Shown in pieces: positions 684 through 26,026 of a stretch of 26,026 nt of DNA (position 1 is its first letter; every line of letters starts with the position of its first letter). Both the position numbers and the translations under genes were made by a program. A model generated the notes under the pieces. It did not search any database. It was not told the DNA's origin and was given only the letters and a program-made list of their open reading frames with translations. The DNA comes from a virus: positions 1 to 26,026 of the IMG/VR virus record IMGVR_UViG_3300028008_000096. The stretch is one strand, 5' to 3'.

Positions 684-2928
684 CAATACAAAAGAAGTAG
701 AAAAACAAATATCCTTTAAAATTGCTCAGCAATTTCCTGCGATTTATAGAGAAAATAACGATGAGTTGGTTTCGCTTGTTACCGATTATTATAAATTTTT
801 AGAGACAACACCTAACCAATCAATATATAATGCAAGAAGGATGTTTGAATACCGCGATATTACTACAACATTATCGAGTATGATTTTATTCTTTCAGAAA
901 AAGTTTTTAGCGGACCTACCTTTACTAAACGATACAAGTGTACGATTAGTTGTTAAAAACATATTGGATTTATATAGACGTAAAGGTTCAGCGTCCAGTG
1001 TTATTTTATTCTTTAGAATGTTTTACCAAGAAGATGTTGAAATATTTAATCCTTCTAAATACATTTTAAAACCATCTACCTCTAAATGGCAGACTGGTAA
1101 TTATCTACAGATGATACCAAACAACGGGTTGTTTTACGATTCAACCAGTGAAAATTATTACGAATATTTTGATTTATTAAGCAAAACAATTATTGGATCT
1201 GTATCAAAGGCAACGGCTGCAGTTGATAAAATTAACTTTATTCTTTTAAATAATACTCTTACGCCAATCTTATATTTGTCTGATGTAAAGGGTACGTTTA
1301 AAAGGTATGACGATATTGTAGCCCGCGTGGATGGTAAAGATATATCCTTCGGCGTATTAAATGGCTCAGCTTCTGACATTGTTGTCGACCTTGACTTTGG
1401 TGGTACCATAGGTAATGTAGTTGGCGATGAAGTTTATATTAAAAGTGATTATGGTGTTGGAGGTGTAGCCCTCGTTACTGATACGGAAGACCAGTTTACA
1501 GGTATAGTCGATTATAAAGTAACTGATGGCGGATTTGGATATACGATAGCTAATACAAGACTCGAAGTTTCAAACCAAGTTATTATTTTAAATAACGCAG
1601 ACTTATCATTTGTTCCAATGGAAAGAATAACTGATAGTGGTGGTAATACGGGAACAGTCATTGGCCAAAATTCTTCAGCCGTTGGTATTAAGATGGATGT
1701 TGGCAATACTTTAAATATAATACGAGATATTACAACACTAGACAGAACACCAAACGTTACAATCACTGGAATATTTACTATATCTGATAAGAATGAAAGT
1801 TCACCTGGTGCTTTATATCCGGATACAAATGATGTAACAGACGTTAAGGTTGAGTCTCTTTCTAATATCGAAAATATTTCTTTAATTACTGACCCTATTT
1901 TGCCATTCCTCGCTGTCACTTTAAATGCGGCAAACTATAACGCTGCACCTGCTACACAACCTATGTCAGGTTTAGTAGACCCCGTAACATTAAGTACTGT
2001 TATTGAAGACGCATTTACGTTGACGCCATTAGAAATTGGAACAATAAATGATTTTGAAAATATTGATCCAGGCATAGATTACTTAAACGATGTGTTTACA
2101 TTAGTTAGAGATGAAGTAATGATTGCGTTTGATAGATACGAACAACGATTAATTATAAATCCATTCAGTGCTGCGTTTTCAGTAGGCGATGATATTACTC
2201 AGCCATCAACAGGTGTAGCTGGTATTATAACGGCTATTAATGTAGACAGAGGATTTATTCAAGTTCGTCCATATGCATACTACGGATTTGTAACTGCTGA
2301 CATTATGCATGAAGGTACATCATATACAGTTATAGCAACTGAAAGAGATTATTCATCTGAATTACTTGGAGCAAACGCCGATGTACGATCGCGTACTCAA
2401 TTTGCCACAGGTAGAATATCTGAAGTAAAAGTTACAAACTCTGGCTTTGGTTATTTAAACGAAGAAATAGTATTCCTTACAAACAAAGCTGGTACAGTAT
2501 TAGCTAAGGGTCAATTATTTGCAGACACTCAAGGTATTACCGCAGGGTTTTGGGGAAGTGAAACATCACATGTAAATGGTTATAAAACTGATAATACATA
2601 TTATGATAGCCAAAATAGAATACATGACTCTGATTTTTATCAGGAATATTCGTATCAAATTAAATCAACTGTTGACTTTGATTCATATAAGGATACACTT
2701 AAACAGAATGTGCACCTAGCAGGTACTAGAATATTTGGTGCATTTGCATATAAAAAGAAACAAGTAGTTGGAGTTACTGCCAAGTTTGGTAGAACAATTA
2801 AGAATGATCCATTAATTGGCGGAGATCCAATTGTTGGACCAGATCAGTTACCATCTATTCCACGATACAGTTCAGACAGAACAACGATTACAGTAGACAC
2901 TATCAACTTAAAGGTTGACACAGTTTAA
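673..2928 (+). CDS. Virion structural protein, probable baseplate wedge (gp7-position) protein
   Basis: A 751-aa protein whose start overlaps the gp6-like stop by 11 bp. Residues 1-140 look helical and contain D-L-Y-R-R-K-G-S (99-106), then F-F-R-M-F-Y-Q-E-D-V-E-I (113-124) and N-P-S-K-Y-I-L-K-P (126-134). This 'FYRxKGT ... FFRxxFxEdVEIyyP' signature is common in structural proteins of marine T4-like phages. The middle is beta-rich, with repeated G-F-G-Y turns. Near residues 650-692 is the second family signature: D-F-Y-Q-E-Y-S-Y-Q-I-K-S, then an H-L-A-G-T-R-I-F-G-A-F segment. T4 has gp7 (about 1030 aa) between gp6 and gp8, so a wedge role equivalent to gp7 is inferred from position, not from recognisable gp7 sequence. 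The gene ends in a promoter-bearing gap. Confidence 0.7.
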   Translation: MPVSNTKEVEKQISFKIAQQFPAIYRENNDELVSLVTDYYKFLETTPNQSIYNARRMFEYRDITTTLSSMILFFQKKFLADLPLLNDTSVRLVVKNILDLYRRKGSASSVILFFRMFYQEDVEIFNPSKYILKPSTSKWQTGNYLQMIPNNGLFYDSTSENYYEYFDLLSKTIIGSVSKATAAVDKINFILLNNTLTPILYLSDVKGTFKRYDDIVARVDGKDISFGVLNGSASDIVVDLDFGGTIGNVVGDEVYIKSDYGVGGVALVTDTEDQFTGIVDYKVTDGGFGYTIANTRLEVSNQVIILNNADLSFVPMERITDSGGNTGTVIGQNSSAVGIKMDVGNTLNIIRDITTLDRTPNVTITGIFTISDKNESSPGALYPDTNDVTDVKVESLSNIENISLITDPILPFLAVTLNAANYNAAPATQPMSGLVDPVTLSTVIEDAFTLTPLEIGTINDFENIDPGIDYLNDVFTLVRDEVMIAFDRYEQRLIINPFSAAFSVGDDITQPSTGVAGIITAINVDRGFIQVRPYAYYGFVTADIMHEGTSYTVIATERDYSSELLGANADVRSRTQFATGRISEVKVTNSGFGYLNEEIVFLTNKAGTVLAKGQLFADTQGITAGFWGSETSHVNGYKTDNTYYDSQNRIHDSDFYQEYSYQIKSTVDFDSYKDTLKQNVHLAGTRIFGAFAYKKKQVVGVTAKFGRTIKNDPLIGGDPIVGPDQLPSIPRYSSDRTTITVDTINLKVDTV

Positions 2929-2960: not shown

Positions 2961-3938
2961 ATGGTAAAGCAAACGATTGGCGTTGGATTGGTTGGTAACG
3001 ATGGTCTCGGCGATCCATTACGTAACGCATTTGTTAAAGTTAACGAAAACTTTACTGAATTATACAACGACGCATTTGATGGTGCATTTACATCATTAAC
3101 TGGTAGACCAACGAGTTTATTATTCTACGTGAATGATGGAGCAAATAACCAAGTTCTTACAACTGACGGTAATGGTAATATAACATTCCAAAGTGGATAT
3201 GGAAACACTAATGTTGATACTCATTTAAATATAGGCTCTGCGGCAGCGGATCAAGTATTAGCTTGGTCAGGAACTGATTACGAATGGGTTCCTCAAGCTA
3301 GTGGTTCAGGCGGCGGTGGCGGTTTATCAAATAATGAAGTGATTAGCGTTATAACTGGTTCTGATTTAGATATGGCCGGTAATAAAGTATTATTTGGTAA
3401 CGTATATCAAGCAGAAGGCGATTTACCCGCAGCCGCTAGTTATCACGGTATGTTTGCTCACGTACATGGAACAGGTAAAGCATATTATGCTCATAATGGT
3501 GCTTGGGTTCGATTAGCAGACTTTTCTGAAGTTGGTTCAGGTGGCGGCGGTGGTTTACCAAGTCGTTCATCTCCTTCGGCTGCTACGGCATCAATCGCTG
3601 ATGGAGTATCAACAGACATTGATATTACTGGGTTTAAAGGATACGCATTATATTCAATCACAACATCGCATCCTGCTTGGGTAACACTTTATGCAACTAA
3701 CGCAGCAAGAACAGCAGATAATTCTAGGCTTGAAACAGAAGATCCTTCACCAGATGCCGGTATTATTTCTGAGGTAATTACATCAACTGGTAATTTAAAA
3801 GTGTTAATAGCGCCAGGAGCAATTGGTTATAATTTAGAATCAACACCAACCGCGAATATACCGGTAAAGGTAAGAAGCAAAAACGGTAGTGCTGCTGCGA
3901 TTACAGTAGCTATAGAAATACTTCAGTTAGAGGCATAA
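2961..3938 (+). CDS. Small tail fibre-like virion protein with Gly linkers
   Basis: A 325-aa protein. The start is supported by AGGAG at 2949-2953. The N-terminus has V-G-N-D-G-L-G-D-P-L-R-N-A-F followed by K-V-N-E-N-F-T-E-L-Y (about residues 11-34), a motif frequent at the N-terminus of marine myovirus fibre proteins. Two glycine linkers, G-S-G-G-G-G-G, separate three parts. The middle part contains G-M-F-A-H-V-H-G-T-G-K-A-Y-Y and H-N-G-A-W-V-R-L. The last 125 or so residues form a compact beta-rich domain ending I-L-Q-L-E-A, which I recall as a recurring C-terminal domain in cyanophage-type fibres. A role as a short fibre or baseplate decoration is inferred. The stop is 1 bp before the protease start, so the two genes are coupled. 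Confidence 0.6.
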   Translation: MVKQTIGVGLVGNDGLGDPLRNAFVKVNENFTELYNDAFDGAFTSLTGRPTSLLFYVNDGANNQVLTTDGNGNITFQSGYGNTNVDTHLNIGSAAADQVLAWSGTDYEWVPQASGSGGGGGLSNNEVISVITGSDLDMAGNKVLFGNVYQAEGDLPAAASYHGMFAHVHGTGKAYYAHNGAWVRLADFSEVGSGGGGGLPSRSSPSAATASIADGVSTDIDITGFKGYALYSITTSHPAWVTLYATNAARTADNSRLETEDPSPDAGIISEVITSTGNLKVLIAPGAIGYNLESTPTANIPVKVRSKNGSAAAITVAIEILQLEA

Positions 3939-3939
3939 C

Positions 3940-6528
3940 ATGCAAAAAGAATGGATTGTTACACTTCATAATAAAGAGGATTTAGATTCTTTTTACGAAG
4001 ACATGGAAACTGAAGGTGGAGCATTATACATTCCGGGACGAGAAATACCTGTTGTTCATAGAAGAAGCATAAGCCGTAATACTCATTATATGTTAACTAA
4101 TGAAGAAGCAAACCAATTAAAAAACGATCCTAGAGTTTGGGATTGTGATTTAGTAGAATTAATTGATTTGACTACCAAACCTCAAGGATGGTCAGTCACT
4201 AATCAAAAGTTTTCAAAAGATTGGTTTACAGACACGACAGATTTTAACTGGGGTTTGCTTAGACACTCTGAAGCTGCCAACAGATCCAATTGGGGCGACA
4301 ATGGAGTTTCAAATGTAAACTCGGATCTTACCGTAACTGCATCAGGTAAAAACGTTGACGTTGTTATTATTGATGGTCACATTGATCCTGGGCATCCAGA
4401 GTTTGCAAAAGTTGGAACTGAGACAGATTATTCAGATGGTGCACTTGTAAGTGACTCATCTAACGGAGCAGTATTTGATAGATCAATCACAGTTCGTGGA
4501 GTTAAATGTGTTATTGCTGGCGCAGTAGGTGGACAAACTACAGTACCAGACGATTGGGCATATAAAACTGCAAAATTTATTACATTACTTATTAATCCAC
4601 AAGATCCTTTAATTAATTTAGAACACCAAGCCAATTTAATTAAAACATTAAAAGGTGATTCAGGAACTACACATGCAGGCTTACCTACGGCACAAAGAGT
4701 TGCTTGGGGTGGTGGTTCTTCATATACACCAAACTTTTTAACAGACTCAGGTGCGGCACAATATTCAGGTTATCAAAACTTTTTAGATACCCATGTCTTA
4801 GATGATATGGTATGGTATAGAAATACATCAGGACCAAACCCACCGACAAGTGATAGAGATATTGAAGAGTTAGCAGAACATTTGTTCCATACAATTCATA
4901 ACTTTGGTATTCCAGGCGCAGTTCCCGGAAGTGCTACAGAAGTTCCTATGCAATCTTTAGGACCGATCCTTCAAAATAATCCTAGTTTTTCTTGGACAAC
5001 TACAGAATTACACCTTGCAATGAAAGAAGCAATTGATGCATCTTTATATGATCCAACTGGTTATTCAACAGATTGGGCTACAGATGCTGAAGCAGCTACG
5101 GTTGCATATAAAGAATATACTTATTTAGTTAATTGGTCAATGTGGGATATGAGTCAATTCTGGGATGGAGGAAGTCTTTCACCAGAATGGGACGACACTT
5201 TAAAAACACCGGCAGGTATGTTGGCAAATAACCCATTGGGTCATGCCTTGTTTAAAAAATACTTTGAACCAGTTTTAAGTAAACCTGATTTTGCTAAGAT
5301 GCAAGATATGCTTCAGGATAATGATGCAGGCGAACATTATTATGAAGAGTCTGCAAACGGCGCTTCCAGAATTAATCAATTTAATTGGTTTTCCTTAACA
5401 AACGCTGTTACCGGTGGTTCAAATGGAACTTATACATATGATCGTTCAGGTTCATATACGAATGTTGCAGATGAAGCAGATAACAATCATGGTTGCCACT
5501 GCGCAGGAACGGTTGCTGGTAATACTCAAGGCTGGGCAAGAGGCGCAAACATCTATAACATTAGCCCTTATGGTTCAAATCCAAATAGCTTATCAAGTAC
5601 AAGGATGTGGGATTACATTAGGGAATGGCATAATACAAAAGCAGTTAACGCTGTAACAGGTAGACGAAATCCTACTATTACAAATAATAGTTATGGTAGT
5701 TCTATACCTGTTGGTTCAGCCGCAGATAATTTTGGTAACATTACAAGTATTACATACAGAGGTACAGAGTTTAGTCCAGGACGTGATTTAACTACCGCTG
5801 AATTAAGAGCTCGTGGTTGTTATGCACCATCTTTACAAATGGATATTCCATATTATTTTACTTCACGTCAAGCTGACCAACAAGATGCTATTGACGATGG
5901 AATTATTATTGTATGTTCAGCAGGTAATGATAGTTGGAAAACTGTTAACGAGTCCGACCAAGATTGGAATAATACATATCAAGTTCAATATTATGGATTT
6001 GACCAAACTTATTGGTTAAACCGTGGTACAGGTTCGGCTGCAGGATTTAATGCAAATATTAACGTTGGCGCTACATCAAATAATGTTAATGAAGTTAAAG
6101 CAACGTTTAGTAACTGCGGTAACCAAGTTGATATTTACGCAGCTGGTGAAGCAATTCAAAGTAGTTTGCACTCAGGTGGTACTAATGATGCTAGAAATAG
6201 TTCATACCAATTAGGTAAGTATCAAGGAACAAGTATGTCTGGCCCTCAGGTGGCAGGAGTTGTTGCATTGCTTGCAGAGTCTTGGCCAAGGATAACTCAG
6301 GAAGAGGCAGAGGATTGGTTACTTAATAACGCAACTATGAATGCCATGTATGACTCTGGTACAGACGATGCGTATGATAGAAATAGTTTACAAGGCGCGG
6401 CAAACAAATATTTAAGATGGATTAATCAGCGACCAATAGATGGAAATACACTTCCAAAACAAAATTTTAAAACAAGACCTGCATCTGGGAAAGTTTACCC
6501 AAGACCTAATATACGTAGAAGAGGTTAG
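3940..6528 (+). CDS. Subtilisin-like serine protease (S8) with large insertion, virion-associated
   Basis: An 862-aa subtilase. Residues 1-75 resemble an I9-type inhibitory propeptide: E-W-I-V-T-L near the start, then N-T-H-Y-M-L-T-N-E-E-A and N-D-P-R-V. The catalytic set is intact: Asp145 in V-V-I-I-D-G-H-I-D (codon 4372), His517 in N-N-H-G-C-H-C-A-G-T-V-A-G (5488), oxyanion Asn663 in S-A-G-N-D (5926), and Ser765 in G-T-S-M-S-G-P (6232). The Asp-to-His spacing is 372 residues against about 32 in subtilisin BPN', because of an insertion of about 300 residues (roughly 160-475) with no recognised domain. There is no signal peptide or membrane segment. The tail after residue 825 is basic and ends R-R-R-G. 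AGAGG at 3929-3933, inside the preceding gene, is the ribosome binding site. Its place between wedge genes suggests late expression and virion association. The substrate is unknown: possibly itself, a neighbouring structural protein or a host surface protein. Confidence 0.9.
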   Translation: MQKEWIVTLHNKEDLDSFYEDMETEGGALYIPGREIPVVHRRSISRNTHYMLTNEEANQLKNDPRVWDCDLVELIDLTTKPQGWSVTNQKFSKDWFTDTTDFNWGLLRHSEAANRSNWGDNGVSNVNSDLTVTASGKNVDVVIIDGHIDPGHPEFAKVGTETDYSDGALVSDSSNGAVFDRSITVRGVKCVIAGAVGGQTTVPDDWAYKTAKFITLLINPQDPLINLEHQANLIKTLKGDSGTTHAGLPTAQRVAWGGGSSYTPNFLTDSGAAQYSGYQNFLDTHVLDDMVWYRNTSGPNPPTSDRDIEELAEHLFHTIHNFGIPGAVPGSATEVPMQSLGPILQNNPSFSWTTTELHLAMKEAIDASLYDPTGYSTDWATDAEAATVAYKEYTYLVNWSMWDMSQFWDGGSLSPEWDDTLKTPAGMLANNPLGHALFKKYFEPVLSKPDFAKMQDMLQDNDAGEHYYEESANGASRINQFNWFSLTNAVTGGSNGTYTYDRSGSYTNVADEADNNHGCHCAGTVAGNTQGWARGANIYNISPYGSNPNSLSSTRMWDYIREWHNTKAVNAVTGRRNPTITNNSYGSSIPVGSAADNFGNITSITYRGTEFSPGRDLTTAELRARGCYAPSLQMDIPYYFTSRQADQQDAIDDGIIIVCSAGNDSWKTVNESDQDWNNTYQVQYYGFDQTYWLNRGTGSAAGFNANINVGATSNNVNEVKATFSNCGNQVDIYAAGEAIQSSLHSGGTNDARNSSYQLGKYQGTSMSGPQVAGVVALLAESWPRITQEEAEDWLLNNATMNAMYDSGTDDAYDRNSLQGAANKYLRWINQRPIDGNTLPKQNFKTRPASGKVYPRPNIRRRG

Positions 6529-6569: not shown

Positions 6570-8207
6570 ATGGCAGAAGTACTTACTACAAAATTAAAAA
6601 ATGATACAACTAGAATGTTTATGACAGACATTCAGAATAACGACTTTTATGTATTCGTTTCTTCTATTACAACTGATACACGCCAAAGCGCGACCAATGC
6701 ACAGTATAGTAAAAATGAGTTTTTAGAAAATACAGTGTTCGGTAAAAAGGTTCTTGGATCTGATACTAAGTTTATGATTAAATACCATCCTTGGCAGAAA
6801 GACGCTACTTACGTTCAATACGATGATAGGATTGATTTAGATGGTGAAAAGTTTTACGCTGTTGTAGGTCCAAACGATAACGATACTGGTGACTATCGAG
6901 TATTTAAATGTTTATATAACAATAATGGCGGCGCTTCATCTGCTCCACCAAACTGGAATGCATTTACAACAGACCAAATATATAGAACAGCTGATAAATA
7001 CGTATGGAAATTTATGTATGCTATTGAATCAAATGAGTTTGAAGCATATAACGCAATCGGTTATATCCCTTTACCTGTTGATTTTGAAATAAATCCAGAC
7101 CCATATGCAAACTCTGCTGCTGTTGTATATGGCTCAGAGTTATCAGACATCTTTATTGAAAACCCAGTTGATAACAATGGTTATCCTTCTTTAGATGGTT
7201 TTATGGCAGCATCACCTTCAAACTCTGGTGATATGTTATTAAGAGCTTCTAATATTAACCAAATTCAAAATTTTTATGCAGGTATGACAATATATGCTAC
7301 CAATCCAGACGGCGTATCCTACCTATATAAAATTGATACATATGAATATGAGCCAAATTCAGGACTTGGAAGAGCAAGAGTTATTGGTGATCCACGCGGT
7401 GACGGTGTTTCAAACATTGCAACATTTTCAATTATCCCAACTGTTGAATTACAGGGAGACGGTAGTGGCTGCATTGCTAAGTCAGAGGTAATTAATGGAC
7501 AAATAACAAATATTATTATCCTTAACCCAGGAAGTGGTTATACTAATTTAACTGCATCAGTTAAAGATCCTGAGTTTGATTTTGCTCCAGAAGATCCTAA
7601 CTCTGTTGATGTTAGAGTAGAATTAAGACCAGTTCTTTCACCATTCGGTGGACACGGTTATAACTTTATTGATGAATTATATTGTAGTCATATTCTTTTA
7701 TATGGATATATTACAGAAACTGATAATAATCAAATTGGTTCAGAAAGCAGTTACTCTAATATTGGTATTGTTAAAAATCCAGAATTTGTGAGTGCTTCAG
7801 CCAATACCGCAAATACACCAGACGTATTTGATAATAGAATTAAAATTGTAACAAACGACATCATATATGCTATTGAAGGTGATGTTGTTACTCAATTAGA
7901 CTCATCAAATAAAATTACATTTACTGGTAAAATACACGAGGTTGACGATACAGCTAACACAGCGTATATCTCAAACTATATGGGTCCATTTACTAACCAA
8001 GCAAATAACGATATATCATTTGACCCAACTGCTGCAATTGTTAATTCTACGGGTCAGAGAATTATAATAAATAGTCCACAAGCCAATAATACGATAGAAT
8101 CAGATTACATCCAAAGAAGTGGGCAAGTATACTTCATGGAAGATTTTGTTCCTCTCGTTCGTACAAGAACCTCACGGGAAGAATACAAATTAGTATTAGA
8201 ATTTTAA
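6570..8207 (+). CDS. gp8: Baseplate wedge subunit gp8-like
   Basis: A 545-aa protein recognised by features shared with T4 gp8: Y-R-V-F-K-C-L-Y (109-116), D-K-Y-V-W-K-F-M-Y-A-I (142-152), and the C-terminus S-G-Q-V-Y-F-M-E-D-F-V-P-L-V...E-E-Y-K-L-V-L-E-F. The last corresponds to the 'SGxMIYMENRPPI...EEINILFTF' end of T4 gp8. T4 gp8 is 334 aa. The extra 210 or so residues lie mainly between about 160 and 515 and include a beta segment with G-D-G-S-G and N-P-G-S-G-Y-T (about 295-325), typical of marine homologues. gp8 dimers sit in the periphery of each wedge, bound to gp7 and gp10 in T4. The gene has its own late promoter and is followed after 13 bp by the DUF4815 gene. Confidence 0.85.
   Translation: MAEVLTTKLKNDTTRMFMTDIQNNDFYVFVSSITTDTRQSATNAQYSKNEFLENTVFGKKVLGSDTKFMIKYHPWQKDATYVQYDDRIDLDGEKFYAVVGPNDNDTGDYRVFKCLYNNNGGASSAPPNWNAFTTDQIYRTADKYVWKFMYAIESNEFEAYNAIGYIPLPVDFEINPDPYANSAAVVYGSELSDIFIENPVDNNGYPSLDGFMAASPSNSGDMLLRASNINQIQNFYAGMTIYATNPDGVSYLYKIDTYEYEPNSGLGRARVIGDPRGDGVSNIATFSIIPTVELQGDGSGCIAKSEVINGQITNIIILNPGSGYTNLTASVKDPEFDFAPEDPNSVDVRVELRPVLSPFGGHGYNFIDELYCSHILLYGYITETDNNQIGSESSYSNIGIVKNPEFVSASANTANTPDVFDNRIKIVTNDIIYAIEGDVVTQLDSSNKITFTGKIHEVDDTANTAYISNYMGPFTNQANNDISFDPTAAIVNSTGQRIIINSPQANNTIESDYIQRSGQVYFMEDFVPLVRTRTSREEYKLVLEF
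8066..8073 (+). promoter_or_regulatory. Possible internal late promoter box (AATAAATA)
   Basis: AATAAATA lies within the 3' end of gp8, about 150 bp before the DUF4815 start. It fits NATAAATA, but it is inside AT-rich coding sequence and could be chance. If active it would give the very long downstream gene its own late transcript. Confidence 0.28.
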
Positions 8208-16616: not shown

Positions 16617-19600
16617 ATGTCATTGATTTCAGAACTCGGTCCGATAACAGGCGCCAATACAAGATCTGAGGATCTTTTCGTTATTGTTAACTTGATCCAA
16701 GGTGATGATGGAACAAAAAACATCACACGTAAGGAACTGGTTCAAGCATTACAATTCGAAATTTTCAACAATATCAAAATTACCGGCGGTTCAATTCAAA
16801 ACGTCGTTATGTCAGTATCAACTCTCAACGATGTTGAAATAAACGACTCTGTTATTAGTAACGGAACAATGACTGGAACTGCTCTTAGCACGGTATCTAT
16901 TGAAGAGTCAACTGCCAATAACATGACAATGACGAATTCAGTAATTACTGATTCTGAGTTTAATGATGGTACTGGTAATAATGTTGTTCTAACAAATTCA
17001 ACTATTGACGATTCAACAATCACTGATAGTTCTGCCAATAACATGGCGATTGATAATTCCGATTTCTCTAATGGAACTGGCAATAATAATATCTTTACCA
17101 ATTCGCAGATTGATGATTCATCTTTTGCAAATGTTGCTATTGAACAAGGTACTGCGAACGGATTAATTCTTACTAATATTACGATTGATGAAATTGTTTT
17201 AGAAGACGCATTAATGTCAAACTCAGTAATCATTACTACTGACTTTAGCAATGGTACGATCCGAGACACTGCAGTATCAAATGTTACTATCGTTGATACA
17301 GACATTTCTAATTCCGATATACGTGATACTGATTTAGACAATGTAACAATTACAAACTCAAGATTTGCTAACGGTTTAATTTGGGATACTACAACAAGTA
17401 ACTCATCTATCATTGACTCAACTGCAAATAATATTGTTATTACTAACTCAGTATTAAATGATAGCACTGCAAATAACGTTCAAATTACTAACTCAGATTT
17501 CTCTGATGGAACTGGTAATAATAACGTATTTACTAATACTACAATCCAAGATGGTACACTTGCTAATAACGTTATTACTGACTCATCATTCCAAGGTACA
17601 CTTGATAATGTAACTGCTCAGAATATGACAATTACAAGTTCATCAACTGAAGGTCTTGGTCAACAAAAATCAGTTATTGAAAATTCAGAATTTAAAGATG
17701 GTGTCGTAGCTAATTCTACAATCGAGGATAGTACTCTTGTAGACTTTGATATGAATATCACTAAAGAGTTTGAGCCAATGCTCGACGAAGATAGTTACTT
17801 TGCATTGAAAAATGTTAAGACTGGTGAAACAGAGAAGATGACTTATCGTCAGTTATATAACGAATTCTCTAAACAAACAGAAAAATCACTTAAGATCCAC
17901 GTTGCTTCTGATGGTGACGACAAATACCCAGGAACTATTTTACAACCAGTTAAAACACTAAAACGTGCTGGGTTACTTGCTTTAGAAAAAGCTGGTGGTT
18001 CATATGATCGTAACGATATTAATAACGCGGTTCACATCTCAGTAGGTCCTGGTACTTACTACGTTGATGAACCAGTTATGTTACCTGATGATACATCAAT
18101 GACTTCAACCAGTGGTCAGTATGCTACACTTATTCAAAAGAAAAAGGGTTGGGAAAGAACAAACGGTATCTTAGTTGGATCTGGTTGTTATGTCCAAGGT
18201 TTCTCTTACATGAACTTCGAAGTTGATAACTTTGACCAACCTGAAGGTGGTTTTGCTATCGCCTACAGACCGGGTGCTCTACTAAGACGTTCTCCATATC
18301 TTCGTGACTCTACACAGCTTTCAAACTTTAATAGACTTGATGTTGAACCTCCGTTAAATCCATTTAACTCAAAAGGTACCATCCTTGATTTAGGTCAGGA
18401 ATTCTATTTAGTTGCAGGTCACTCTGCTCAAACTCAATTTGAAGTTGATGATGAAGTAACATTCTCATCTGGTGCATCAGGTTATATTTCATATATTGCT
18501 GATATTGATGCTAACAGACAAATCTACGTTCGTAACCTTAAGGGTAATGTTGAAGTTGGCGATGTACTATACGCACAACGTGGTGGTACAGGTACTATCG
18601 AGTCAATCGGTATTGATGATTTCCCTAACAGACTAGTTGGTCGTGGCGGTGGTTGTCTATTGGCAGATAGAGCGGTACTAGATACAGACTCACTATACAC
18701 ATACGTATTATGTTTTGGTTTCACACCTCGTACTCAAAACGGTACAGGTTATGTTGCTAAAAACGGTGCTGGTGTTAACGGTATTGGTTCATTATCAATC
18801 TTTACTCGCCAAGCGTTCTTTGCTCTTGATGGTGGCCAAATGACATTGAACAACTCAGGTTCTCAGTTTGGTGACATATCAATGAGAGCAAGAGGTTCAA
18901 CAGTTATTATTAGACCAGCTGAAGGTACTGCTGGAAACTTAATTGCTAACTCTGCGTTTGCCGACGTACTAGAAACAAAATCAGATGAAATAATTGATGA
19001 CATGGTTTACTACTTAACATCACCTACTTCTGATGGTGGTTTAGGTTATCAAGGTTATAATGCTGATAAGTGTTTCAGAGATACAGGAATTATTGTTGAC
19101 AATACTGGTTTCGATGTTGCTACAAAAGGTAACTATTGGGGCCGCTTAAATGGTATTTCATATCGTTCACCAATTTCATACCTTGTTGTTAACGAACAAT
19201 TAACAGAAACTACTGGATCTATTAATCACCTTAAAGACTCTATTGTTAGTACAAATGGTGGTATCTTTGGTAACGCAGGTTCTGAATTAATATCTCGAGT
19301 TAACTCTTCACTTGATGAAACATTAAACATCTTAGAAAATGGTGAAGAAGCAGCGAACCCTATTATATTCTCAGACACTGGTAAGTCAGATCAGACTGCT
19401 GCTAGAGAACTTGTTCAGTCTAACAGAGAATTAATCATCAACGACTTTGTTGATTGGATTGATAATAACGATGATTTCTACGCTTACGATAGTGCTAAGT
19501 GTGAAAGAGACGTTCAGGAATATATCTTACCTGCTGTCAAATTTGACATGATGTTAGATACAAATTATAATACTGAAAACGCTGGATTAGCATATTATGT

Positions 19601-22600
19601 TAACACTGCAAGAACAAGCCTTGAAAACCAAAGAAATGAAACAGTTGCTTCGTTTAAGAGATTACGAAAAACAACTGATGAATTAATTCAAGCTAACTCT
19701 GCTCCTGCGGCATCATCTGCTTACTCTGCATTTAATAACGTTATTGATACGATTGCAGGTTCAGGTGACAAATATACACCAACTAAAGCAACGTACGAAC
19801 CAACAACTGGTATGATGGTTATTACTATCGGTACACACGACTTGACAGTTGGACGTTACGTTAACCTTCAGGAAGAATCATTTACATTCACATGTTCAAG
19901 TGATAACTTTAAAACAAAAATTAGCCATCCACGTAAATCAGAAAAAGCTTACTTGGCTGCGTTACCAATTGTTGCGGTATCAGCAAAAACTATTACAGTT
20001 AACCCAGGATTAACCGCCGCAAACTTCGAACACAGATTTGTTGAAGCGGCTGATAATGCTGTATCAGTAATTGGTTCGCTATTGACATACTCTGATAACA
20101 CTGGTATATCAGTTGATAAGCGTAACGCGCGTAAAATTCTACAAGCAAATAAAGAATACATCCAAGACTACATGATGGAATGGGCAGACAACGAATGGTA
20201 TTTCTATGATAGCAAAAAATGTCACAGAGATACTGAAGAGTATATTTTACCTGCAGTACAACGTGATTTAATTCTTGGTACAAACTATAACGCTATTCAA
20301 ACTGGCGCTGCTTACCGTACTAAATCTGGTGAGGTAAGTGTTACTGAACAGTTAGAGCAAACCGTTGGTTCGATTGATTATTTAAAAGCAAGAGCTGCTA
20401 CGTTTATTGGTGATAACCCAATTGCAGTTGACAGAACAAATGCTTCTTTTGACGAAATGTCGAGATTGCTAAATAACAATGGTAAAAAATATACACCAAC
20501 TAACGCTGTATATGATCCTGCAATAGGTTCAGTTGTTATGACGATTGGTTCTAATGACTTTAACATTGGTGATGAAATTTACATTGAACCAAATAGTTTA
20601 GTATTTACATGTGCATTAGATAATAACACAACTGAGCATTCATATCCTTCTACTCAATTCTTAAACTTTACTCCAACTGACGCTTCATACGATGTTGCTA
20701 CTGGAGAGTTTAGTGCAACTATAGGTACACACACCTTGAAGGTTGGTGATAAGGTTGAATTTAAACCAAGTTCAATTATCTTTACTTGCCAGCTTGACGG
20801 TGATATAACAAACCACCCTGCACCAGAATCACATCACCCATTCTATAAGAAACAAATCACTATTGAAAAAGTTGATGCAACAAAAATCTATATGAATGTA
20901 GGTGGAATTGTTGACGGTGGTGGTGCTCATACATTCGTATCTGCATCAGATAATTGTATCCAAGCTGAAAAAATGCACCCTGCATATAAAAAGCCAGTTA
21001 CAATTTCTGCAAGAACTTCAACAACTATTACTGTTAATGTTGGTGAGTCAAGCGATACATCAGTACATACTTTCGTATCAGCAACTAACAACGCAATACG
21101 TGAAGCGGGAATGTGGACTGGTAAGTTTACTCCTCAAACAGCAACATACAGCCCAGTAACTGGCGAGTTAGAAATTACTATCGGACAACACGATTTACCG
21201 GTTGGTAAATGGATCCAAATCGCACCTGAGTCAATGGTATTCAGTTGTGATGTTGGTGGTGTAACAGGTACAGACCTTTCACCATTAAACGATCACCCTG
21301 CATATAAAGAACCAGTAAGAGTTACTGGAGTAACATCAAATACAATTACTGTTAATGTTGGTAATGCTGGCGGACATGCTAATAACCACACATTCGTATC
21401 GGCAACTGAAGACTCAATCGACTCAAACGCATTATTCTTCTCAGACTCTGCTAGAGTTATAAAAGCCTTTACACCAGAAACTGCTACATACGACCCAGTA
21501 ACTGGTATCATGGTTATTACTATTACTGACCACGGTATGACAACTGGCGACCATATTGAATTACAGCCATTAAGCTTTGCATTCAGTTGTGCTCACAATG
21601 GTGGCGGTACTGATTACTCACCACGTATTGGTGATAAGGCTTATCAATTACCATTAGAAATTACTTCAACAACATCAAATACAATCACAGTAAACTGCGG
21701 AGATGCAGGATCTAACACTGATCCACATACATTTGTAAGTGCTGATGAAGGTGCGGTTGTACAGGTTGGGGCTAAAGAGCAAGGTACATATGCTTCTCGT
21801 ATCCTACAGAAAAATAAAGCTTATCTTCAAAATGAAGTTAAAGAATGGATGGAAAATACTTACTTCGTCTATGACAATGCTAAATGCTCTAGGGATACAG
21901 GTTTAATTTTAGATGCGGTTGCTAGAGATATTTTAACAGACTCAACTGTTAACGCTTACTATGTAGGTAAAGGTTATACAATTGGTACGGTTGGCGCTAA
22001 TGCAGTAATCAACGATCAGTTAACTCAAACTGTTGGTGCTATCACTTGGCTCAAAGGTAAAATCGCAACTGACGTATTAACTGATGCTACAGCAATTACA
22101 AGGTCAAACACTGCATTTGATACTATCATTGATATTATGTCAAATGGTATTGCTTCTGCAGATGATCCAGTATATGGTGACTTAACAATATCACCAGAAC
22201 ATCGTCAAGCAGGTAAAGCGATACATACTAACAAATCGTTTATCCAAAAAGAAATCATCGCGTTTATCACAGCTAACTATCCAAACTTCGTATATAACAC
22301 TGCTGCATGTGAAAGAGATATGGGTATCTTCGTTGACCTGATTGCATGGGATGTACAAAATGGTTCGAATGCATTAAGTGCAACTAACTCGAAACTATAT
22401 TTTGAAAATGCTATCCCAGTATTAGATGATGAAGAAGTTGTTCCAACATCGGAAGCATTCTTCTTTGCATCAGATCTAGTTGGTCAAATTGTTAGAAACG
22501 AAGTTGTTACTCCACTTCAAGGTGTGGTAACTCAAACTATTGTTGAAACAACAACATATACACCAACAACTGCGTCATACGATCCTGCAAATGGTGACTT

Positions 22601-25600
22601 CGTAATGACTATGCCGGGGCACAGTGTTTCTCTTAATGATAGAGTTACATTGGAACCAAATAGCTTTACATTCACATGTACAATGGATGGTGACGATGCA
22701 GCCAAAACATATCCTCGAGCAGGACTTGATCCATACGCATTGAAAACATATTTGGTTAAAGAAGTAACATCAAGCACAGTTACACTAGACGCCGGGGCAT
22801 CAGGTCCTAACAAATACTTTACACCAACATCTGCAAACTATGATGCGGCAACCGGTGAAATGATTGTTAATGTTGGTCAACATGGTTTAAGAGTTGGTAA
22901 CGGTATTGTTTTAGAAAATAACTCATTCACATTTACTTGTGACCAAGACGGTAATGCAACTCAACATACATATCCAAGAGTTGGTGATCCATTAACTGGT
23001 AAATCATTATCAATTACTGCAGTTGGTGAAACTCAACATACTCCAACAAATGCAGTTCATAGCCCATCAAGTGGTGATACAACAATCACAGTAGCTGGAC
23101 ACGGATTTAGTAATGGTGATTATGTAATGATTGCAGATTACGGATTAGTATATACATGCGTACTTGATGGTAACACAGTTGAAAAAGGTTATCCAAGAGA
23201 TACTGATTTCGCATCAAACCGTTGGTTGGAAATCTCAGATGTTACAACTGATACATTCAAATTAAATGTTGGACCATCACCTTATAATGGTGCTCATATA
23301 TTTGTAAGCGCGACGGCTAATTCAATCAGACGTCAAACTGGTACAATGACATTCAATGTTGGTGACGCAGGATCAGCTTCTGGATCAGTACATACATTCG
23401 TAAGTGCAACAGCTAATGCAATGAAACATGAGCCACAAACTGTACATACATTCGTATCGGTTACTGCTGATGCAGTTAATGTAGCAAATATGGCAGAAGC
23501 TTATACACCAACAGGTGTTGTATACGATCATAACTCTGGCGTTATGACAATGACATTGGGTACTCACTCATTTACTGAAAAGGATTATGTAATCTTTGCA
23601 GAGAATGCAATTACATTATCTTGCGCATCAGGACCAACTGAAATTCCAACTAACATATCACACCCTAGACCAACTGATCCAATTTATAACAAACCAGTTA
23701 GAATTGACTCAGTTACTCCAACAACTATTACATTACAAGTTGGTGAAGCTAGAGTTGATAAGGTTCATTCATTCGTAAGCGCATTAACTGACGGTGTACG
23801 AAGGTCTATTAAACCTGCAGTTGCTCAACACGCTGAAAAATTATTCCACGATGTTGGCGCGGTTATCAGAGAAAATGATGGTACAATCCCAGCGATCGTT
23901 GAACCAGCATTTGATACTTTCACTGCAAACTATACATTAGGCGCAGAATTTGAGTCAATCAAAGGTCAAGCTGTTAAGTATCAAACTGAAATCAATGAAT
24001 ATATCGCAGACACATATAATGGCTTAGCATATAGCTTAGAGAAATGCCCAAGAGATACGGGTTACATTGTTGACGCGATTTCAGAAGACTTAGAATATGG
24101 CGGAGACTCTGCTACAATATTCAATGCAAGATATTATTTTGAAGGTGCTATTAACGTATTACCTCAATATCAGAGAGAACCAACAAGATTGGCATTCACT
24201 CACCTTGCAAGTGTAATGGAAAAAGTTGTTAAGAATGAAGTACAAGAACCAATCTTTGGAGCAAGATTTACTCCAACTGGCGCAACATACGATCCTGTTA
24301 CAGGTATCATGGTTGCTACTATCGGTACTCACACATTAACAACAGCCGATCACGTCTGGTTCAAACCAGGAGCAATTACATTCTCTTGTGATAATGGTAG
24401 CGGTCCAGAAAATCATGCAAGCCCTGAGTCACATCATCGCTTCTTTAACAAAGCGTGTCCAATTATTGGTGCTGATGCAACAACGATTACAATGTGGGTA
24501 GGTAATGCTGGAGCATATACTGGTGCTCATACATTCGTATCTGCATTAACTGACGCTATTTCAGAAATTAATGGTAACCTTCTATATCAAAACGTATCAC
24601 TACAAGCTGCTGATACTGCAACAGGAACTATCGCATCTGACCTAGCAATGGTTATAGCGAATATTGTTGACGACAGATTGGTAATCCCAGATTACAGAGG
24701 TTCATTAGATATTAGTCAAAGAACTCCTAAGCCACTGCCTACGGAGAACTTATTAACTAAACCAAAAGCAGATCCTGCTAGAACATTCGCACGTAAATCT
24801 CTACAATGGAACAGAACGTTTATCCAAGAAGAGCTTATTCAATTCGTACGAGATAATAACTATACATTCGATGAAGCAAAATGTGCTAGAGATGCAGGCT
24901 TCATTATCGATGCGGTTAGAAGAGATGTTCAAACAGGTTCAACATACAATGGTAAGTATATCGGTAAATCATATCGTATTGGTACTGTAGGTGCTGATAA
25001 GGTTATTGAGGACCAACTTGCCGAAACAATTGAAGGAATCAGATATGTACAAAAAGACATCGAAGCACAGCTTTCCGGTGTAGCACTTACTAGAGCTCAG
25101 GATTCCTTCAATAACATTATTACATCTATGATTAATGATTACACACCAGATGGTACAAACTATAACTACGGTGATGGTCAAATTTCTGATAACCACGTAT
25201 TTGCTCGTCAAGCGCTTCAACTTAATAGAGAATTTTTAAAAGAAGAAGCAACAGCATGGGTCAACGCAAACTACGGCGGATTATCATATGATGTAAATAA
25301 ATGTAAACGTGACACAGGTATTATGGTTGACGCGGTATCATACGATACACAACACGAGTCAAATACTGCGATGCTTGATGTTGCTAAACTATATTTTGAG
25401 AATGGTCTATCCACATTGAGTTCAGCTCAAAGGGCACCGACCGCTGCATTATATACTCACTTAAGTTCAGTAGCAAGTCAAATTGTTCTGAAACAAACAG
25501 TAGGTAGATCAGCTGGTAATACCGTTACTCAAAATACCTCATTCGGTGTAGTTACTGTTCCAATCGCACAGCATATTACATCATTATGGAAAATAGTTGG

Positions 25601-26026
25601 AGACTTAATTGCTGACGACTCATTAATCAATATGCCTGATGTTTCAGAAATTGCTACAAATACTGTTGGCGCTGAAAACTACTTATACGATCCTGAAGCT
25701 ACATTAATCAAAGGACGTAAAAATAATCTACAAGGTACGATTACTCAATACCTAAGAGATAACTTCGATTACCTTGAGTATGATGAAGCACGATGCAGAA
25801 GAGATACAGGTTATATTGTTGATGCAATTTCTCACGATATTCAATATGGTGGTAACTCTGCAATGCATGGTACTGCTGAACTTTACTTCAAAAATGCGGT
25901 AAATATTCTACCAATTGACCAACGTCAATCAACAAGAGAAGCATTTGAATATCTTGGTAAGGTAGTTCGTTGGGTAACTCGTAACGAAATGGTACCACGT
26001 AAAGAAGGTCGTAAGTTTACACCATC
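16617..26026 (+). CDS. Giant multi-repeat virion/fibre protein (3' end outside window)
   Basis: The frame is open from the ATG at 16617 to the right edge: 3136 full codons with no stop. AAGAAGGT at 16601-16608 and a late promoter support the start. Four parts are visible. Residues 1-58 are a short N-terminus (S-E-D-L-F-V-I-V-N), typical of marine-phage fibre proteins. Residues 59-328 are 54 consecutive pentapeptide repeats. Residues about 424-787 resemble a DUF1565/pectate-lyase-like domain, with V-A-S-D-G-D-D-K-Y-P-G-T...P-V-K-T-L and V-G-P-G-T-Y-Y-V. From about residue 788 two repeat families, A (beta-type) and B (probably helical), alternate to the end. The size and repeats suggest a long fibre or peripheral tail structure reaching the host surface. 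Very large structural proteins with such motifs are known in marine T4-like phages, but their exact function is unclear. Confidence 0.88.
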   Translation, partial: MSLISELGPITGANTRSEDLFVIVNLIQGDDGTKNITRKELVQALQFEIFNNIKITGGSIQNVVMSVSTLNDVEINDSVISNGTMTGTALSTVSIEESTANNMTMTNSVITDSEFNDGTGNNVVLTNSTIDDSTITDSSANNMAIDNSDFSNGTGNNNIFTNSQIDDSSFANVAIEQGTANGLILTNITIDEIVLEDALMSNSVIITTDFSNGTIRDTAVSNVTIVDTDISNSDIRDTDLDNVTITNSRFANGLIWDTTTSNSSIIDSTANNIVITNSVLNDSTANNVQITNSDFSDGTGNNNVFTNTTIQDGTLANNVITDSSFQGTLDNVTAQNMTITSSSTEGLGQQKSVIENSEFKDGVVANSTIEDSTLVDFDMNITKEFEPMLDEDSYFALKNVKTGETEKMTYRQLYNEFSKQTEKSLKIHVASDGDDKYPGTILQPVKTLKRAGLLALEKAGGSYDRNDINNAVHISVGPGTYYVDEPVMLPDDTSMTSTSGQYATLIQKKKGWERTNGILVGSGCYVQGFSYMNFEVDNFDQPEGGFAIAYRPGALLRRSPYLRDSTQLSNFNRLDVEPPLNPFNSKGTILDLGQEFYLVAGHSAQTQFEVDDEVTFSSGASGYISYIADIDANRQIYVRNLKGNVEVGDVLYAQRGGTGTIESIGIDDFPNRLVGRGGGCLLADRAVLDTDSLYTYVLCFGFTPRTQNGTGYVAKNGAGVNGIGSLSIFTRQAFFALDGGQMTLNNSGSQFGDISMRARGSTVIIRPAEGTAGNLIANSAFADVLETKSDEIIDDMVYYLTSPTSDGGLGYQGYNADKCFRDTGIIVDNTGFDVATKGNYWGRLNGISYRSPISYLVVNEQLTETTGSINHLKDSIVSTNGGIFGNAGSELISRVNSSLDETLNILENGEEAANPIIFSDTGKSDQTAARELVQSNRELIINDFVDWIDNNDDFYAYDSAKCERDVQEYILPAVKFDMMLDTNYNTENAGLAYYVNTARTSLENQRNETVASFKRLRKTTDELIQANSAPAASSAYSAFNNVIDTIAGSGDKYTPTKATYEPTTGMMVITIGTHDLTVGRYVNLQEESFTFTCSSDNFKTKISHPRKSEKAYLAALPIVAVSAKTITVNPGLTAANFEHRFVEAADNAVSVIGSLLTYSDNTGISVDKRNARKILQANKEYIQDYMMEWADNEWYFYDSKKCHRDTEEYILPAVQRDLILGTNYNAIQTGAAYRTKSGEVSVTEQLEQTVGSIDYLKARAATFIGDNPIAVDRTNASFDEMSRLLNNNGKKYTPTNAVYDPAIGSVVMTIGSNDFNIGDEIYIEPNSLVFTCALDNNTTEHSYPSTQFLNFTPTDASYDVATGEFSATIGTHTLKVGDKVEFKPSSIIFTCQLDGDITNHPAPESHHPFYKKQITIEKVDATKIYMNVGGIVDGGGAHTFVSASDNCIQAEKMHPAYKKPVTISARTSTTITVNVGESSDTSVHTFVSATNNAIREAGMWTGKFTPQTATYSPVTGELEITIGQHDLPVGKWIQIAPESMVFSCDVGGVTGTDLSPLNDHPAYKEPVRVTGVTSNTITVNVGNAGGHANNHTFVSATEDSIDSNALFFSDSARVIKAFTPETATYDPVTGIMVITITDHGMTTGDHIELQPLSFAFSCAHNGGGTDYSPRIGDKAYQLPLEITSTTSNTITVNCGDAGSNTDPHTFVSADEGAVVQVGAKEQGTYASRILQKNKAYLQNEVKEWMENTYFVYDNAKCSRDTGLILDAVARDILTDSTVNAYYVGKGYTIGTVGANAVINDQLTQTVGAITWLKGKIATDVLTDATAITRSNTAFDTIIDIMSNGIASADDPVYGDLTISPEHRQAGKAIHTNKSFIQKEIIAFITANYPNFVYNTAACERDMGIFVDLIAWDVQNGSNALSATNSKLYFENAIPVLDDEEVVPTSEAFFFASDLVGQIVRNEVVTPLQGVVTQTIVETTTYTPTTASYDPANGDFVMTMPGHSVSLNDRVTLEPNSFTFTCTMDGDDAAKTYPRAGLDPYALKTYLVKEVTSSTVTLDAGASGPNKYFTPTSANYDAATGEMIVNVGQHGLRVGNGIVLENNSFTFTCDQDGNATQHTYPRVGDPLTGKSLSITAVGETQHTPTNAVHSPSSGDTTITVAGHGFSNGDYVMIADYGLVYTCVLDGNTVEKGYPRDTDFASNRWLEISDVTTDTFKLNVGPSPYNGAHIFVSATANSIRRQTGTMTFNVGDAGSASGSVHTFVSATANAMKHEPQTVHTFVSVTADAVNVANMAEAYTPTGVVYDHNSGVMTMTLGTHSFTEKDYVIFAENAITLSCASGPTEIPTNISHPRPTDPIYNKPVRIDSVTPTTITLQVGEARVDKVHSFVSALTDGVRRSIKPAVAQHAEKLFHDVGAVIRENDGTIPAIVEPAFDTFTANYTLGAEFESIKGQAVKYQTEINEYIADTYNGLAYSLEKCPRDTGYIVDAISEDLEYGGDSATIFNARYYFEGAINVLPQYQREPTRLAFTHLASVMEKVVKNEVQEPIFGARFTPTGATYDPVTGIMVATIGTHTLTTADHVWFKPGAITFSCDNGSGPENHASPESHHRFFNKACPIIGADATTITMWVGNAGAYTGAHTFVSALTDAISEINGNLLYQNVSLQAADTATGTIASDLAMVIANIVDDRLVIPDYRGSLDISQRTPKPLPTENLLTKPKADPARTFARKSLQWNRTFIQEELIQFVRDNNYTFDEAKCARDAGFIIDAVRRDVQTGSTYNGKYIGKSYRIGTVGADKVIEDQLAETIEGIRYVQKDIEAQLSGVALTRAQDSFNNIITSMINDYTPDGTNYNYGDGQISDNHVFARQALQLNREFLKEEATAWVNANYGGLSYDVNKCKRDTGIMVDAVSYDTQHESNTAMLDVAKLYFENGLSTLSSAQRAPTAALYTHLSSVASQIVLKQTVGRSAGNTVTQNTSFGVVTVPIAQHITSLWKIVGDLIADDSLINMPDVSEIATNTVGAENYLYDPEATLIKGRKNNLQGTITQYLRDNFDYLEYDEARCRRDTGYIVDAISHDIQYGGNSAMHGTAELYFKNAVNILPIDQRQSTREAFEYLGKVVRWVTRNEMVPRKEGRKFTP
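16791..17600 (+). repeat. 54 tandem pentapeptide repeats in the giant protein (residues 59-328)
   Basis: The translation divides without a break into 54 five-residue units, from S-I-Q-N-V to S-F-Q-G-T. The second position of each unit is I, L, V, F, M or A except for three G (T-G-N-N-V/N) and one T. The fourth and fifth positions are mostly N/D and S/G/T/V. This fits the pentapeptide-repeat family (A-[D/N]-L-x-x), which folds as a four-sided right-handed beta-helix. A 20-residue unit, one predicted coil, recurs at pentads 12-15, 19-22 and 48-51 (e.g. D-F-S-N-G then T-G-N-N-N then I-F-T-N-S). After 17600 the register shifts and decays by about 17750. Confidence 0.82.
17886..18975 (+). other. 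Predicted pectate-lyase-like beta-helix domain of the giant protein
   Basis: Residues about 424-787 open with I-H-V-A-S-D-G-D-D-K-Y-P-G-T, P-V-K-T-L-K-R-A and V-G-P-G-T-Y-Y-V-D-E-P-V-M-L-P. This is the arrangement of DUF1565-type entries into right-handed parallel beta-helices. It continues with L-R-R-S-P-Y-L-R-D-S-T and a G-G-G-C-L-L-A-D turn. Catalytic residues of a lyase cannot be assigned, so it may be purely structural. Confidence 0.55.
18978..26015 (+). repeat. B-type repeats (K-C-x-R-D-x-G core), nine copies
   Basis: Each copy has a probably helical lead (e.g. N-K-S-F-I-Q-K-E), an N-Y/F-Y segment, then K-C-x-R-D-[TV]-x-x-[IY]-[IV]-[DL]-A-V/I-x-x-D. Conserved Cys codons are at 19071, 19500, 20220, 21885, 22308, 24045, 24882, 25302 and 25794. 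Two subtypes follow the core. One has Y-x-I-G-T-V-G-A-[ND]-x-V-I-x-[ND]-Q-L (clear after 21885 and 24882, weaker after 19071). The other has L-Y-F-E-N-A...T-x-x-A-F-x-H-L...V-x-x-x-V-V (after 22308, 24045, 25302, 25794). Copies 2 and 3 carry E-Y-I-L-P-A-V instead. Similar 'KCxRDxGyIvDAv' segments are familiar from other marine T4-like phage structural proteins. Confidence 0.75.
19773..26026 (+). repeat. A-type beta repeats (Y-T-P-T ... F-T-C ... H-T-F-V-S-A), ten copies plus a start
   Basis: A full unit is about 98 residues. It opens [YF]-T-P-T-x-A-x-Y-D-P-x-T-G, continues I-G-x-H-x-L-x-x-G-D, F-[TS]-C-x-x-D, x-H-P-x-Y-x-K-P-V and T-I-T-V-N-V-G, and ends H-T-F-V-S-A. Units start at 19773, 20490 (shortened), 20667, 21126, 21468, 22557 (shortened), 22818 (shortened), 23037, 23502 and 24267. 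An eleventh begins at 26016 and is cut by the window. A half unit lacking the front lies at about 20968-21096. All ten visible F-x-C positions retain Cys. Units cluster in tandem at 20490-21762 and 22557-23799, with B units between. Confidence 0.8.

Follow-up and report, generated by a model that had tools for sequence, protein, structure and literature searches.

Phage tails are known to be mosaics, both in their genes and in the tips of their fibres. Among the described systems close to the locus reported here, which lies in a 26,026-nt stretch of DNA from a marine virus of bacteria (hereafter the window), is a group of subtilases encoded in the baseplate operons of cyanophages (phrog_9158, including the 'subtilisin-like serine protease' of S-H38, S-CREM1 and Sf-FR1). 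These enzymes share the S8 family and the N-terminal part with the subtilase of the window, and those of S-CREM1 and S-H38 also lie between gp10/gp9-like and gp8-like genes, but all three are 39–45% identical to it and lack its insert. The family is thus not new, as had been suspected in the original prediction, subtilases being already annotated in cyanophages. The domain that forms the insert (the guest domain) is found in a second described system, the phrog_708 wedge protein encoded in the gp9–gp8 interval of S-RIM2, S-RIM12 and Syn33, although this carrier is not a protease and exists in forms without the domain in S-H25, S-SM1 and S-SSM5. The gluzincins (M34 PPEP, M9 collagenase, M30 lugdulysin and M1) provide the best structural matches to the model of the guest domain, in which a His helix and a second Glu helix are likewise predicted, whereas the guest domain has EHxxH instead of HExxH and no similarity to them was found in sequence or, for M1 and M30, in profiles.

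Promiscuous Ig-like domains turn up in a variety of virion proteins from one phage to another (Fraser et al., 2006, as cited in PMC10385173). The guest domain is similarly spread, but it differs from them in its size (about 310 residues), its predicted enzyme-like fold, its single copy per virus and its occurrence both within other folded proteins and at protein ends. The baseplate operon of marine T4-like phages has already been described as containing putative host-recognition domains, YHYH among them (PMC7029224). In the open literature we found no description of a marine-phage baseplate subtilase or metalloprotease, and no published description of the guest domain itself. We describe here a folded, enzyme-like domain that has travelled as a single unit into the interior of other folded baseplate proteins. 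Since the edges of its cassette are still readable at 92–96% DNA identity, the mobility of a virion domain becomes directly measurable. The domain also gives a handle on how the additional baseplate proteins found in marine T4-like phages affect the host surface, a question that is testable because the carriers include the cultured cyanophages S-RIM2, S-RIM12 and Syn33. Its EHxxH site, if catalytic, would represent a new kind of metallopeptidase site.

The subtilase and its setting in the baseplate operon

The subtilase gene (3940..6528, + strand, ATG start, 862 residues) belongs to a T4-like baseplate operon: the C-terminus of a gp6-like protein (3–683; Pfam and PHROG searches), a gp7-like wedge protein (673–2928; phrog_17744), a gp9/10-N-like protein (2961–3938; Pfam T4_gp9_10_N, phrog_677), the subtilase and a gp8-like protein (6570–8207; phrog_438). 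The Pfam and PHROG assignments of the two immediate neighbours, gp9/10-N-like and gp8-like, bear out the initial placement of the gene inside a baseplate cassette. The gp8 of the window is closest to that of T4-like phages of Alphaproteobacteria (about 25%), and no near DNA match to the subtilase gene was found among GenBank phages. Further downstream, a giant open frame (16617–26026, more than 3136 residues) runs past the end of the window; it contains a pentapeptide-repeat stretch and matches tail-fibre and virion-structure PHROGs.

The 862-residue protein matches Peptidase_S8 in Pfam (PF00082; E = 1.7e-24, 87 bits against a cut-off of 21.8) and phrog_9158 in the PHROG search (E = 1.4e-103). 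The S8 triad and the oxyanion asparagine are all present in their motifs, exactly where they had been read at first: Asp145 (4372..4374), His517 (5488..5490), Asn663 (5926..5928) and Ser765 in GTSM (6232..6234), all on the + strand, are unchanged in 19 insert-bearing relatives and in a 36-member alignment. The full-length predicted structure (36 sequences; pLDDT 83, pTM 0.80) has a subtilisin fold, as seen from its superposition on the proteinase K-like 8c4z (Z 33.1, rmsd 2.4, 277 aligned). In this model the insert is looped out of the S8 part as a discrete domain.

Residues 1–83 (3940..4188, + strand) are predicted to fold as a compact α/β unit (strand–helix–strand–strand–helix–strand), for which Pfam gave no match to a propeptide family. 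Mature solved subtilases align with the model only from about residue 84 and residues 76–81 appear as a low-confidence linker, so that residues 1 to about 80 resemble a propeptide, which may be cleaved from the enzyme. Inhibitory propeptides of this kind are common in S8 enzymes without being universal. With its active-site residues in place, the protein is probably active as a serine protease, in agreement with the initial reading. The C-terminal tail (residues 836–862; 6445..6525, + strand) is predicted to be disordered and carries a conserved YPRxxIRxRG motif; we would guess that it is a candidate baseplate docking peptide. The motif is kept in the clade of the window and in most insert-free relatives, and is absent from more distant insert-bearing ones.

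The insert and its separate history

The original prediction noted a distance of 372 residues between Asp145 and His517; this is correct, and about 320 extra residues are found there. They correspond to a mobile in-frame cassette (4407..5370, + strand) encoding the guest domain (residues ~157–477). The insert-free allele of contig L081 has 31 bp in place of 4407–5370, whereas its flanks, 2.7 kb to the left and 3.2 kb to the right, match the window at about 98% identity. The insert is also missing from L091, L082, L084 and L085 (98 to 83% DNA identity). Copies of the insert that are 100% identical are present in several other IMG/VR contigs (L005–L008), which rules out an assembly artefact as its origin. 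Among GenBank phages, 125 records match the protein of the window and none covers 80% of its 862 residues; the matches listed cover only one of the two parts, S8 or insert. Judged from these sequence comparisons, the insert is recent and optional in the subtilase. Its composition does not match the Trp/Tyr-rich segment announced at first, with 2.8% tryptophan and 4.4% tyrosine compared with 3.0% and 4.6% in the remaining protein.

The insert is under purifying selection (dN/dS of about 0.17–0.30), and its divergence does not follow that of the subtilase body. Identities to the window for the body and the insert, respectively, are 92 and 70% in L088, 69 and 90% in L074, 56 and 88% in L076, 49 and 88% in L013, and 30 and 74% in L020. 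Silent divergence from the window shows the same pattern (dS of 0.30 for the insert and 1.5 for the body in L013, and of 0.84 and 0.46, respectively, in L072, values above 1 being only rough), and the discordance is therefore not merely the result of a stronger constraint on the insert. In AU tests, the body and insert partitions each reject the tree of the other (p = 6.7e-5 and 4e-45).

Other carriers, the DNA cassette and copy number

In S-RIM2, S-RIM12 and Syn33 the guest domain (44–45% identical) is located inside the phrog_708 YHYH baseplate wedge protein, the gene of which sits between gp9-like and gp8-like genes in S-RIM2. The phrog_708 protein is domain-free in S-H25, S-SM1 and S-SSM5, where the match covers both flanks of the domain and about 18% of the length is absent. 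In the L036 virus (182.7-kb record) the domain occupies residues 388–698 of a gp7-like protein. When the gp7-like protein of the window is aligned with it, residues 9–386 pair with 9–388 and residues 389–691 with 702–1005, leaving a clean gap at the domain; the window therefore holds an empty site in its own gp7-like gene (1831..1836, + strand; residues 386/389). Further carriers are a fibre-like ORF (L037), a tail-fibre ORF (L031) and ORFs of 3000–5600 residues (L038–L045, L059 and L144), and the domain is also found at the C-terminus of a subtilase in L148 and L057. In L148 (3738–7843) two subtilase genes are arranged in tandem, the first with the guest domain at its C-terminus and the second without it. 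Where a phage carrier can be identified, it is mostly a baseplate or tail protein, and empty sites are known for three kinds of carrier (S8, gp7-like and phrog_708). Presence in frame in unrelated virion proteins, together with empty sites in relatives, is what is expected of a promiscuous accessory domain.

At the DNA level, a cassette of about 0.93 kb is 92–96% identical between L036 and L038, L043, L040, L034, L037, L045, L144, L057 and L058, although the genes that carry it differ, and no DNA match between L036 and these nine cassette bearers was reported beyond the cassette. Its left edge falls on the same base in nearly all of the L036 comparisons, and inspection of the edges by eye revealed no terminal repeats. 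The domain is thus mobile, with gain, loss and change of carrier.

All 12 virus records that were searched hold a single copy of the domain, and in GenBank 85 phages each have a single domain location per record. Half of the 12 virus records (six) have no S8 match; one of these is S-RIM2, whose 175-kb genome is complete, while several of the remaining ones are fragments. The domain is a guest and no part of the protease, since it resides in non-protease carriers, in one copy per virus, and is present without any subtilase in S-RIM2. The L036 virus encodes a separate S8 ORF of 570 residues (L036:4843–7920), far from the domain: about 126 kb separate it from the domain-carrying gp7-like gene, which indicates that the subtilase itself changes place in such genomes.

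Fold, putative metal site and possible roles

The insert was initially said to have no recognisable domain. This stands for sequence searches, as no match to it was found in Pfam, PHROG, NCBIfam or PDB sequences, but not for the comparison with relatives and the predicted fold, both of which show a discrete domain. The model of the guest domain (18 sequences) has a pLDDT of 84, and a Foldseek search with this model returned nothing at E < 0.001 in the PDB or in viral models. In the VIA structural comparison, the top 18 rows are all gluzincin zinc metallopeptidases, from M34 (PPEPs, Z 7.6–6.1), M9 (collagenases), M30 (lugdulysin) and M1 (aminopeptidases), whereas non-gluzincin folds have Z values of 3.3 or less. 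The best gluzincin match (Z 7.6, rmsd 4.8, 159 aligned) lies below the safe limit of the tool, Z 8, under which a score may reflect a common arrangement, so that a gluzincin-like fold of the modelled domain is likely and not proven.

Two predicted helices carry the most conserved residues of the domain. The first contains a putative metal site, E310-x-x-E313-H314-x-x-H317-T318-x-H320 (4867..4899, + strand), and the second, E392-Y393...N398 (5113..5133, + strand), a putative third ligand, E392. All of the residues named are conserved in 79–80 of 80 homologues from phages and bacteria, those of the second helix in all 80. However, 79 of the 80 homologues have EHxxH and not the HExxH that defines gluzincins; the domain is not filed among them because this motif fails, although it may still work like one. 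Compared by eye with the M30 motif HEFQHMIH, EHxxH has its first two letters swapped, which is suggestive only, and a profile comparison of the domain with small M1 and M30 alignments gave no signal. From the model and the conserved residues, we infer that the guest domain may bind a metal and act as a catalyst. A 38%-identical domain in the gp7-like protein of L063 (6001–6981) and L067 has lost EHxxH (GSLIR), so that the domain persists in at least one lineage that lacks the putative metal site. In a very weak distant match, a tyrosine is found in place of H314.

We hold with moderate confidence that the locus encodes a displayed, mobile, gluzincin-like domain within an active baseplate subtilase, and that this domain works on the host surface as a metal-dependent hydrolase or as a binder descended from such an enzyme. 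The subtilase, encoded in the baseplate operon, is probably made with an N-terminal propeptide and active as a serine protease, with an independent domain of about 310 residues, tied to no single carrier, looped out of its Asp–His segment. This domain has passed from phage to phage in the form of an in-frame cassette of about 0.93 kb, and many insertion sites in baseplate and tail proteins accept it, with one copy per virus. Displayed at the baseplate, it would most likely be such a hydrolase, or else such a binder, and would act during adsorption on a surface protein or on the matrix of the marine host; the same is probable for the subtilase. A displayed enzyme or binder is the simplest account because most of the phage carriers that could be identified are baseplate or tail proteins, the copy is single, the site is nearly irrelevant and the putative metal residues are kept; the domain would accordingly be expected on the virion, with a target on the host surface. 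The homologous S8 protein of S-SCSM1, a phage with published virion proteomics, is annotated '(virion protein)', which lends support, short of proof, to the presence of such subtilases on virions. Of the roles first proposed, that of a host-surface protease on the baseplate is the most plausible, now for two separate modules. A narrower version of the displayed-hydrolase explanation is put forward tentatively and is doubtful as a whole: an undescribed metallopeptidase family with a swapped zinc motif, with Glu313, His317 and Glu392 as ligands and His314 replacing the base Glu, a 0.93-kb in-frame cassette with fixed edges that hops between unrelated baseplate genes, and selection that keeps just one displayed copy on each virion, in any accepting carrier.

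The loss of HExxH, the retention of the domain without its motif in L063/L067, the putative binding domains, such as YHYH, held by neighbouring carriers and the little difference made by the attachment site would also suit a module that uses a metallopeptidase-like fold to bind the host without catalysis, and whose spread over carriers results from selection on host recognition, as in Ig-like and other accessory domains of phages. This is a real possibility without being the probable one: the E, H, H, H and E residues are almost totally conserved on two facing predicted helices in phages and bacteria, a conserved E/H set on two helices being typical of a metal site and unusual in a fast-evolving receptor binder, and between distant relatives the insert is more similar than the S8 carrier (74 versus 30% in L020). 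The reading drawn from the original prediction makes the insert a zymogen-like or regulatory element of the subtilase, required for fibres to mature structurally, and its position within the Asp–His segment of a protease with a propeptide-like N-terminal part would fit. That explanation is very unlikely in view of the 98%-identical alleles that lack the insert, of the other carriers of the domain (gp7-like, YHYH, fibre-like and giant proteins, and the C-terminus of subtilases), and of S-RIM2, which has the domain and no subtilase. These observations concern the insert and are neutral on whether the subtilase matures fibres. Hardly credible, finally, is an intein or selfish homing element that would splice out or spread by itself, even though presence and absence in frame at several sites and sharp cassette edges would fit it: the insert starts with KVGTETDY and ends with EESANGAS, with one Cys in all, and thus has neither Cys/Ser at its N-end nor His-Asn plus Cys/Ser/Thr at its C-end; Pfam and PHROG searches gave no endonuclease or transposase match; stand-alone, secreted-looking bacterial homologues exist; and the copy number never exceeds one.

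Bacterial homologues of the guest domain (Flavobacteriaceae, Opitutales, Oceanospirillaceae and others) are rare; they have a signal- or lipoprotein-like start and carry the domain at their extreme C-terminus. Other bacterial copies are found in large surface-type proteins, one of them with a dockerin-like stretch. In a search of 983 bacterial genomes from three phyla, the domain was confined to the three seed genomes, apart from two partial matches that were very weak; it appears rare and sporadic among bacteria, and this search speaks against a wide bacterial distribution. Two copies in a 'Rhodobacteraceae' bin (L120 and L121) are borne by subtilases, and these contigs are taken to be phage. 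In a verrucomicrobial surface protein (L131:2–4525), a domain of the guest type is combined in one chain with Ig-like domains and an M60 (enhancin-like) peptidase.
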